21,093 nt of DNA. Origin: a virus. The notes beneath the pieces were generated by a model. It was not told where the DNA came from and did no database searches. It worked only from the letters and a program-made list of their open reading frames with translations. This document shows positions 18,459 through 21,093 of the stretch, one piece after another (the first letter of the stretch is position 1; every line of letters begins with the position of its first letter). The stretch is taken from positions 1 to 21,093 of IMG/VR virus record IMGVR_UViG_3300032093_001005; one strand, written 5' to 3'. Position numbers and translations under genes: made by a program.

Positions 18459-18649
18459 AGATTACAGATTACAAAAGCCTATTTAAGTATGGCGACATGA
18501 AGAAGATTATGGAAATAACAGGCTATAGTCGTTATGTAATAGAAACAAGACTTAAAAACAATGATTACGAGATGACCGAGTTAATCAAAACATTCTATGA
18601 CAAAAAACTTGAATTACTTAAAAACCAAATATGGGAGCATCAGAAATAA
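18452..18649 (+). CDS. Small helix-turn-helix-like protein (65 aa)
   Basis: A 65-residue protein with the segment YGDMKKIMEITGYSRYVIET followed by RLKNNDYEM, which fits a helix-turn-helix: a short helix, G-Y-S turn, and recognition helix ending in basic residues. The C-terminal helix is Lys/Leu-rich. It overlaps the DnaA-like gene by 19 bases in another frame, so both probably work together or are at least co-translated. The role as a DNA-binding regulator is inferred from the motif only. Confidence 0.6.
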   Translation: MLEITDYKSLFKYGDMKKIMEITGYSRYVIETRLKNNDYEMTELIKTFYDKKLELLKNQIWEHQK

Positions 18650-19005
18650 GCTATTACGTTATGCCAGGACTAAAACACAGAGAGATAAGATTTGAGCAAG
18701 TTATAAGAACGGTATGTGATGTCATGAAAGCTGATAGACTAAAAGTACTTACGCCAAACAGAAGTAAGCAATTAGTTTTTGCTAGGAATATGTGCTACTT
18801 TATTTTTAGACGTTATTTTTCGATGACGTTAAAGGAGATAGGTCAAGCTTTTGACAGAGATCATACTACAATCATACATGGAATCATGACATTCCAAAAC
18901 GATATAGAATGCATCAAGTTTTATAAAACTCAGTTTCAAGAGGTACAACAAACATTAGGATTACATACAAACAACAAAAAACTAAATATTTTAACATTAA
19001 ACTAA
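18631..19005 (+). CDS. Stand-alone DnaA domain IV-like protein
   Basis: A 124-residue protein matching only the C-terminal DNA-binding domain of DnaA. The N-terminal block RFEQVIRTVCDVMKADRLKV corresponds to the first domain IV helix; ARNMCYFIFRRYFSMTLKEIGQAF (51-74) and DRDHTTIIHGI (75-85) match the basic helix and the signature that contacts the DnaA box. The AAA+ ATPase domain and oligomerisation domain are absent, so it can bind origins but cannot assemble like DnaA. It could be a phage replication recruiter or a competitor of host DnaA. The start is at 18631, with Met11 (18661) as an alternative. The domain identification is strong. Confidence 0.88.
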   Translation: MGASEISYYVMPGLKHREIRFEQVIRTVCDVMKADRLKVLTPNRSKQLVFARNMCYFIFRRYFSMTLKEIGQAFDRDHTTIIHGIMTFQNDIECIKFYKTQFQEVQQTLGLHTNNKKLNILTLN

Positions 19006-19867: not shown

Positions 19868-20332
19868 ATGAATTTAACATTATTACCAAAAGTAGAACTT
19901 AGTTCTATAGAACCGAACAAATTTGCTATTGAGTTAATCAAGTCGCAGATAGTAGATCACTTTACGCAGACTGGTGAGTCACCATTAGAACTACTTGTTA
20001 AGTCAGAGGCTGTTGTACAGCTTTTAGAAGGCATTAGAGCCGATTTAAAGGAGTTAGTACTAGATGAGCTTAGTAAGTATCCTGGAGGCAAGGCTGAGGT
20101 CTTAGGAAGCGAAATGGCTAAGTTTGAATCAGGTGTTAAGTATATCTATGACCAAGACTATACTTGGAGCAAAATGAATGAAGAAATAGAGTCATTAAAG
20201 TTTGCTTTAAAGGAAAGGGAAAAGATGCTTAGAACATTGCCTATGGCTATGGTTGATCCTGAATCAGGAGAGATGGTCCACCCAGCACCTAGAATAAGTA
20301 CAACAACCTTTAAGATTAGCTTAAAGAAATAA
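19868..20332 (+). CDS. Helical hypothetical protein (154 aa)
   Basis: A 154-residue protein starting right after the preceding stop. It is strongly helical: NKFAIELIKSQIVDHFTQTG, AVVQLLEGIRADLKELVLDEL, and a coiled-coil-like end with NEEIESLKFALKEREKMLRTLP. A C-terminal beta-rich tail STTTFKISLKK follows. In Bacteroidota phages genes of this size often accompany recombination proteins; here an intrinsic terminator directly follows, ending this operon section. No recognised catalytic motif. Confidence 0.65.
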   Translation: MNLTLLPKVELSSIEPNKFAIELIKSQIVDHFTQTGESPLELLVKSEAVVQLLEGIRADLKELVLDELSKYPGGKAEVLGSEMAKFESGVKYIYDQDYTWSKMNEEIESLKFALKEREKMLRTLPMAMVDPESGEMVHPAPRISTTTFKISLKK

Positions 20333-20342
20333 AAATCCTCCA

Positions 20343-20406
20343 CCACCTCAAGATACCAATATTAATAACCTGATAGTAATTTATAAAAAACTTGGGGTGG
20401 TTTTTT
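20343..20406 (+). terminator. Intrinsic terminator with long loop
   Basis: CCACCTCAAG (20343-20352) pairs with CTTGGGGTGG (20391-20400), ten base pairs with one wobble, around a 38-base loop, and is followed directly by six T. It begins 11 bases after the stop codon of the helical protein. The loop is longer than usual for a terminator. Confidence 0.75.
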
Positions 20407-20417
20407 AAACTACAAAC

Positions 20418-20534
20418 ATGAAACAAACGATAATATTTATATACGAGCTTACAAAGTTTGTAATAATATCTATACCACTAGCAATATTGCTATTTGTAAC
20501 ATTAACCATAATTAGTAAATTCAAGAATATATGA
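20418..20534 (+). CDS. Single-TM miniprotein (38 aa)
   Basis: A 38-residue frame MKQTIIFIYELTKFVIISIP and LAILLFVTLTIISKFKNI with a long hydrophobic stretch and basic ends, so a membrane protein. It overlaps the next gene by 4 bases (ATGA), typical of coupling. The gene lies after the terminator; read-through or an unseen promoter would be needed. No family recognised. Confidence 0.5.
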   Translation: MKQTIIFIYELTKFVIISIPLAILLFVTLTIISKFKNI

Positions 20535-20743
20535 TGGAGATTGCAGGATTAGAGAACTCAGTACCAGTGAGGATGATTTATGTTGACGACAAAAGTGAAG
20601 TATTGTTTAAATCTTTAGCTCATGCAGCAAGGAATACAAGAATAACACAAGACTCAATAAAGAAATCACTTAACCCATTACTAAAGAGGAAATTTAAACA
20701 CAATAATAGAGATGTGGTTTTTAGGATAGTAAAGGATAAATAG
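20531..20743 (+). CDS. Small DNA-binding-like protein (70 aa)
   Basis: A 70-residue protein. The region SEVLFKSLAHAARNTRITQD and SIKKSLNPLLKRKFKHNNRD is rich in basic residues and resembles the small NUMOD1/IENR1-type DNA-binding modules (an F.S...AAR..... helix then S..K.L) that usually accompany homing endonucleases; here it stands alone. The start is ATG 20531 or the next ATG at 20534. Its stop codon abuts the candidate promoter of the following RNA. DNA binding is an inference. Confidence 0.55.
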   Translation: MMEIAGLENSVPVRMIYVDDKSEVLFKSLAHAARNTRITQDSIKKSLNPLLKRKFKHNNRDVVFRIVKDK

Positions 20744-20751
20744 TATATTTG
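20721..20751 (+). promoter_or_regulatory. Candidate promoter of the kissing-hairpin RNA
   Basis: TATATTTG (20744-20751) is an exact fit to the -7 consensus TAnnTTTG and starts directly after the stop codon of the 70-residue gene. A T-rich stretch about 20 bases upstream (20718-20722) fits a weak -33. The predicted start point, 20756 or so, coincides with the beginning of the first hairpin. Confidence 0.55.
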
Positions 20752-20755
20752 TCGA

Positions 20756-20838
20756 TGCAAACCGTACTTTGCAGTTAAAACTTATTGCCCGAAGAGGCGT
20801 GGGGGTGTACGGACTCCCGCAAATCTGAGGGCTTTTTT
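20756..20838 (+). ncRNA. Two-hairpin RNA with complementary 6-nt loops (kissing-loop), U-tract end
   Basis: Hairpin 1: TGCAAA (20756-20761), loop CCGTAC (20762-20767), TTTGCA (20768-20773). Hairpin 2: GTGGGGGT (20799-20806), loop GTACGG (20807-20812), ACTCCCGC (20813-20820). The two loops are exact reverse complements. Hairpin 2 is extended by AGA/TCT (20793-20795 with 20824-20826), a tandem G-A/A-G step, and GCCC/GGGC (20787-20790 with 20829-20832), then six T at 20833-20838, the shape of an intrinsic terminator. A promoter precedes it, so it may be an independent small RNA of about 83 nt or a leader attenuator for the replication gene, whose ATG is six bases beyond the U-tract. No known RNA family recognised. 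Confidence 0.6.
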
Positions 20839-20843
20839 ATTTT

Positions 20844-21093
20844 ATGAATACAGGAATGATTGTTAAGAGCAGATCGGCTGAGAAGTTTACTGCTATCGAC
20901 AACGAGATTATTAGGAATGTCGAATTAACATTAGAGGAGAGAGGATTATTAATTTATTTACTAAGCATGAGGCATGATTGGGTGGTTTATAAAACTAACC
21001 TACATGAACGATTAGGTTGCACTAAAGGTCAACTAGACAGAGTTTTTAAGGGATTACAAACAAAGAACTATATCTTGTCTGTAAAGGTTATAA
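20844..21093 (+). CDS. Replication initiator-like protein, N-terminal part (partial)
   Basis: An open frame from ATG 20844 to the window end, 83 codons. The protein starts MNTGMIVKSRSAEKFTAIDN and continues through ELTLEERGLLIYLLSMRHDW, VVYKTNLHERLGCTKGQLDR and VFKGLQTKNYILS, a winged helix-turn-helix (about residues 28-80). This is the N-terminal domain typical of small phage/plasmid replication proteins. Position after the early genes fits an origin-binding or helicase-loading role. The C-terminus and any ATPase or primase domain lie outside the window. Translation would begin six bases after the RNA U-tract. Confidence 0.75.
   Translation, partial: MNTGMIVKSRSAEKFTAIDNEIIRNVELTLEERGLLIYLLSMRHDWVVYKTNLHERLGCTKGQLDRVFKGLQTKNYILSVKVI

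Follow-up and report, generated by a model that had tools for sequence, protein, structure and literature searches.

A compact two-hairpin RNA with covarying complementary loops precedes predicted replication initiator and homing-type endonuclease genes in phages

In copy control of the ColE1 type, kissing takes place between RNAI and RNAII, two different antisense transcripts that pair with each other, and the pRNA of phi29 is an assembling phage RNA whose architecture depends on loop-loop contacts. GOLLD and ROOL are likewise assembling phage RNAs (PMC12286853). In the rep leader attenuators of pT181 and pIP501, an antisense RNA made from the opposite strand drives termination (PMC5703833), while in T4-like phages the homing endonucleases I-TevI, segB, mobE and seg43 (the last from Aeromonas phage 25) are controlled by RNA hairpins (PMC2988022). 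Here, we describe a two-hairpin RNA with complementary loops in a viral DNA of 21,093 nt, the whole of which we call the window. Rfam 15 gave no match at gathering score in the window, nor at E ≤ 10 within 20400–21093, and with the other alleles no match to the RNA and one chance match outside it. The literature searched, mainly open-access, contained no equivalent phage kissing-loop RNA of Bacteroidetes, in line with the first-pass annotation of this DNA, which knew of no family with such a layout.

The features of the locus are collected in Table 1. Two hairpins with exactly reverse-complementary loops, each closed by its own stem, had been proposed, with the second extended downwards by further paired elements as far as a T6 run; sequence and RNAfold agree on both points, and the coordinates proposed were right at every position checked. 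RNAfold recovered exactly these two hairpins (−30.9 kcal/mol, z −2.58, with 2 of 200 shuffles equally stable), leaving the start region 20833–20846 unpaired in the minimum-energy fold, and the opposite strand folded more weakly (z −1.38). Both strands of the window were scanned for two hairpins within 90 nt, with stems of at least 5 bp and loops of 6–7 nt that are exactly complementary; this is the single place found, compared with 0.017 per strand in first-order Markov controls.

Table 1 Positions of the RNA, its promoter element and its flanking genes in the window.
Feature	Position	Strand	Sequence or structure	Basis or remark
Upstream 70-aa gene	20531–20743	+	MMEIAGLE...	No Pfam match; neighbour used as anchor
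−7 element	20744–20751	+	TATATTTG	Bacteroidetes sigma-A type TAnnTTTG; no clear −33 element
Hairpin 1	20756–20773	+	6-bp stem TGCAAA (20756–20761)/TTTGCA (20768–20773), loop CCGTAC (20762–20767)	Fold
Linker	20774–20786	+	GTTAAAACTTATT, single-stranded	Relatives keep AAgAACTTATT (alignment)
Hairpin 2	20787–20832	+	GCCC/GGGC base, G-A/A-G step, AGA/TCT, 3x3 internal loop, upper 8-bp stem	Fold
Hairpin 2, 5' arm	20787–20806	+	GCCC (20787–20790), GA, AGA (20793–20795), GGC, GTGGGGGT (20799–20806)	
Hairpin 2, loop	20807–20812	+	GTACGG	
Hairpin 2, 3' arm	20813–20832	+	ACTCCCGC (20813–20820), AAA, TCT (20824–20826), GA, GGGC (20829–20832)	
Kissing (loop-loop) helix	20762–20767 with 20807–20812	+		Complementarity, and covariation in relatives
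T-rich tail	20833–20843	+	TTTTTTATTTT; T6 at 20833–20838	Terminator-like; between hairpin 2 and start codon
Initiator ATG	20844	+		
Replication initiator (predicted), start	20844–21093	+	MNTGMIVK...	Runs off the window; no Pfam match

The consensus of the Bacteroidetes −7 element is TAnnTTTG (PMC6847099, PMC9723704), and by the numbering determined for Flavobacterium johnsoniae, T-12 to G-5 (PMC6847099), the predicted +1 is 20756, in agreement with the earlier placing of the start at the first base of hairpin 1. This is the only + strand TAnnTTTG outside coding regions between 14 and 21 kb, with no separate operon promoter between the RNA and the ATG, and the element is retained in relatives whose upstream DNA is unrelated.

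Related viral contigs were fetched via proteins from both flanks, via the DnaB helicase and via DNA patterns. At more than 300 fetched loci, comprising 64 distinct full sequences, this two-hairpin layout recurs downstream of a Bacteroidetes −7 element. The common plan, drawn up from 48 and later 64 distinct RNAs, runs from TAnnTTTG through 2–4 nt, hairpin 1 (4–6 bp, loop 6–7), a linker of 12–15 nt near AAgAACTTATT and hairpin 2 (4-bp base, symmetric internal loops, upper stem) to a T-rich tail and the ATG. Fourteen loop pairs were found, and 14 of 14 are complementary over 6–7 bases: CCGTAC/GTACGG, ATGCGAC/GTCGCAT, GTCGGAT/ATCCGAC, ATTGCAG/CTGCAAT, GTTGCAG/CTGCAAC, GTACGAG/CTCGTAC, GGACGAG/CTCGTCC, GTACCAG/CTGGTAC, GTAGGAT/ATCCTAC, GTCGCAT/ATGCGAC, GTCGTAT/ATACGAC, GTCGTTT/AAACGAC, GTGAGAT/ATCTCAC and, by eye in the more distant L387, GTACAAG/CTTGTAC. 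Between several of these pairs, a single compensated base pair is the whole difference. The covarying changes in both loops that the first-pass annotation had proposed to look for among homologues are thus present.

A structure-guided alignment of 22 sequences, with N as padding, had 98.8% of its cells paired and two-sided changes in 22 of 23 pairs; in the kissing helix, 100% of cells were paired and all 7 pairs changed on both sides. Hairpin 1 showed two-sided changes in all six pairs, and the stems of hairpin 2 also covary. The covariation score of the alignment was reached by none of 500 shuffles, and slid versions fell to 33–44% paired. G-U pairs are present in the stems, with none in the kissing helix. 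As the script that selected the aligned rows demanded complementary loops, we tested sets found without that rule. In a pattern scan using the flanks and linker only, all matches except one chance match (L269) have complementary loops. A covariance model that leaves the loops unpaired, so that loop pairing is not scored, returned 43 distinct matches, one cut by a contig end and one a 23-bit chance match; the remaining 41 of 41 are complementary, 40 of them over at least 6 bases automatically and L387 by eye, with the reservation that the training sequences were all complementary and the model may favour their relatives. Homologues with the surrounding genes and no loop complementarity would have spoken against the structure, and in the set anchored on DnaB every complete RNA is complementary; where complementarity is missing (L158, L186 and, by a larger deletion, L131/L132), the whole RNA is gone. 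Covariation and the control scan together rule out chance pairing of the loops. On these comparative grounds the element is a real structured RNA, because its loops change together across relatives, and the loop-loop pairing is near certain.

Bacteroides and Parabacteroides phages have the terminases nearest to that of the window (~35% identity); this and the type of promoter suggest hosts in the Bacteroidota. Such hosts rarely use Shine-Dalgarno sequences. Among cultured phages, searches with the DNA and with the 70-aa neighbour protein found nothing similar, and in bacterial genomes 0 of 30 GTDB pattern matches fit the model, those inspected by eye resembling chance. A search of 397 genomes, all from the family that includes an Aquimarina genome, likewise yielded no model match, a weak result given strict filters and no positive control.

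The ATG that follows the RNA opens a predicted replication initiator, of many unrelated types, or an HNH or GIY-YIG endonuclease, and before these many unrelated genes it lies 10–13 nt, usually 11, from hairpin 2. The initiators, assigned as such from domain and position, include HTH_36/DnaD-like, Lin1244_N and DUF6291 types. One lineage has DnaB directly after the initiator, as in the relative L003, where an initiator of 213 aa is followed by a DnaB helicase identified by Pfam; the other has an HTH_39 winged helix gene upstream and no DnaB directly after the initiator. The location first described as lying before a replication gene corresponds to the head of a predicted initiator-DnaB operon. 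At some loci the first gene is the HNH-like or GIY-YIG endonuclease, and in L084 and L202 an HNH-like gene precedes and overlaps the initiator gene, which places the RNA at the head of an operon. The same allele can stand before unrelated initiators, and the same initiator behind several alleles; these mixed combinations rule out an initiator-specific autoregulation site. Also in the window, the early region at 18631–19002 encodes a small protein carrying the C-terminal DNA-binding domain of DnaA (Bac_DnaA_C).

In L158:2052-2270 and L186:2737-2955, the 70-aa gene is followed by TAA-CAAAAC-ATG of the initiator, with promoter and RNA cleanly absent, and expression can therefore do without the RNA. 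The flanks of L075 and L067 are 97% and 95.5% identical while the RNAs between them are only 52% identical, and the same allele (97.5–100% identical) occurs in unrelated flanks. Together, the empty sites and the allele swaps between flanks indicate that the RNA is optional and is exchanged as a unit. In L110 and L112, contigs of L131 and L132, truncation of the 70-aa gene after residue ~37 leaves it fused in frame to an initiator beginning MAQFY, with loss of the RNA; this fusion is either a real deletion or an assembly error.

Further copies elsewhere in the genome precede NUMOD4+HNH_3 endonucleases (L173:1616, L398:5589), and L286:7122, L357 and L358 appear similar. The second copy in L398 (5589-6152, loops GTGAGAT/ATCTCAC), with its NUMOD4+HNH_3 gene, is placed between terminase-like and portal-like genes, a position that makes RNA and endonuclease look like a mobile insertion. 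In the records with both copies read (L286, L173/G004 and L398), the loop pairs differ within each record, which is an observation and not a test, since two of the three share one combination; G434 is a fourth record with two copies. A different hairpin, CCCCC...GGGGGC with a ~40-nt loop, shares the TTTTTTATTTTATG tail and lies ahead of another gene, a few hundred bases from the two-hairpin RNA (L235:9973-10073, L254:10645-10745, L192, L257).

Ten of the 11 tail nucleotides are T, whereas the 11 nt ahead of the other 29 window genes contain 2.6 T and 6.0 A on average, so that the start region resembles a terminator tract. A simple terminator scan did not call hairpin 2, because only 4 contiguous pairs adjoin the T tract: an intrinsic terminator has an uninterrupted G-C-rich stem and an immediate U tract, whereas here 4 base pairs are followed by internal loops. 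Many homologues start the tail with AC, TC or TA, and no antiterminator pairing was seen. Elsewhere in the window, a terminator-like long-loop hairpin, CCACCACCTCAAG...CTTGGGGTGGTTTTTT, follows a 154-aa gene at 20338–20406.

The reading that we favour, tentatively and a little short of an even chance, is that the element is a promoter-proximal cis leader of ~83–88 nt that limits expression of the gene behind it, probably by ending some of the transcripts at hairpin 2. It is favoured because of the near-fixed distance to the ATG, the position at the head of an operon and the sole promoter-like element, and termination is taken to be partial rather than strong because the scan was negative and many tails begin with AC, TC or TA. 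Transcription would start at hairpin 1 from the Bacteroidetes-type promoter, and the RNA would fold while being made, its two hairpins becoming locked by a kissing helix of 6–7 bp that presumably forms within one molecule. At hairpin 2 and the U-rich tail, a fraction of the transcripts would stop just short of the start codon, and those reading through would give a limited dose of the next protein, an initiator or homing-type endonuclease that is plausibly harmful in excess. Against a leader, the fixed spacing could reflect a cassette copied as a unit. The first-pass annotation had spoken of a self-contained transcription unit, and the near-fixed spacing is as compatible with a leader as with a free small RNA; its suggestion of copy control finds little footing, as there is no antisense promoter and the RNA also precedes homing-type endonucleases. 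TAnnTTTG is absent from the − strand at 19895–21093, and across relatives the opposite strand has it inside 0 of 48 RNAs and within 250 nt downstream in 3 of 48. With an opposite-strand promoter absent, antisense-RNA copy control of the plasmid type is not supported.

That the element instead works in trans, as a small RNA of ~85 nt which finds targets via its conserved linker or internal loop and has the next gene merely downstream, is possible though doubtful: the linker is conserved and the unit is compact from promoter to tail, optional and exchangeable, yet the ATG distance is near-fixed before many unrelated genes and the operon has no separate promoter between RNA and ATG. We consider it unlikely that the RNA is a 5' stabiliser or translation element, a folded mRNA cap that slows decay or sets ribosome access without termination. 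Sequence changes with retained structure are what a shape-only role predicts, the start site is the first base of hairpin 1 and the U tract is uneven among homologues; however, stabilising does not need matched loops, and the T-rich start region differs from the other start regions of the phage. An inverted repeat acting as DNA, bound by protein or serving as a recombination boundary with RNA pairing incidental, would account for cassettes that swap between phages and mark module junctions, and for the lack of G-U pairs in the kissing helix, but it is very improbable given stems that contain G-U pairs and covary as RNA helices, complementary segments that fill loops of exactly 6–7 nt, and an allele that precedes unrelated initiators.

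Sequence alone does not separate an intramolecular from an intermolecular kiss. If loop 1 paired with loop 2 of another molecule, dimers or chains would result, perhaps with a protein, as in assembling phage RNAs. By our estimate a straight stack of ~33 layers is near the reach of the 12–15 nt linker, and a kiss within one molecule would therefore probably require the rod to bend at the internal loops; it can bend there, however, and the conserved length and sequence of the linker fit an intramolecular fold, leaving assembly between molecules improbable. Since the two loops match, a completed RNA could also kiss the nascent hairpin of another transcript and alter its termination, making the RNA its own trans-regulator in a same-allele feedback that scales with genome copy number. 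This is a long shot; if true, the loop pair would be a self/non-self tag, giving copy control without an antisense promoter, and a tag of this kind would account for the large number of alleles, for swaps among near-identical phages and for the differing pairs in two-copy phages.

The element represents a compact class of phage RNA with unusually strong loop-loop covariation, tied to the initiators of two lineages and to homing-type endonucleases. If it acts as a leader, this suggests that phages of Bacteroidota may set the dose of an initiator or endonuclease by a small exchangeable RNA cassette. Its small size and natural alleles offer a test system for the effect of a kissing loop on transcription and translation, in a phylum mostly without Shine-Dalgarno initiation.

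In pT181 and pIP501, a structured leader places a terminator-like hairpin directly ahead of the rep start codon (PMC5703833). The RNA described here is likewise structured and lies before predicted initiator genes, and its hairpin 2 with the T-rich tail, 11 nt ahead of the ATG, may be the counterpart of that hairpin, although the terminator scan was negative for it; in contrast to the plasmid leaders, the RNA has no opposite-strand promoter and carries its complementary loops within one molecule's sequence. As in the T4-like phages, RNA structure stands immediately before a phage endonuclease coding sequence, and as in seg43 the stem is just upstream without covering the ribosome site, whereas the T4-like hairpins mostly hide the Shine-Dalgarno sequence (PMC2988022); here, the start region lies outside any stem of the minimum-energy fold, and two hairpins have matched loops. 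With ColE1 RNAI/RNAII it shares loops of 6–7 nt paired over their full length, but both loops belong to the same transcript. GOLLD, ROOL and phi29 pRNA also have architectures relying on loop-loop pairing, and differ in being far larger, with other secondary structures and gene contexts. The hallmark of kissing-loop RNAs in general, covarying loop-loop complementarity, is present (7 of 7 pairs two-sided, 14 loop pairs). Plasmid rep attenuators, T4-like endonuclease hairpins and kissing-loop RNAs in general are therefore the nearest analogues, and as none of them matches its layout, this is a new RNA family, with a mechanism that probably lies within the known repertoire.
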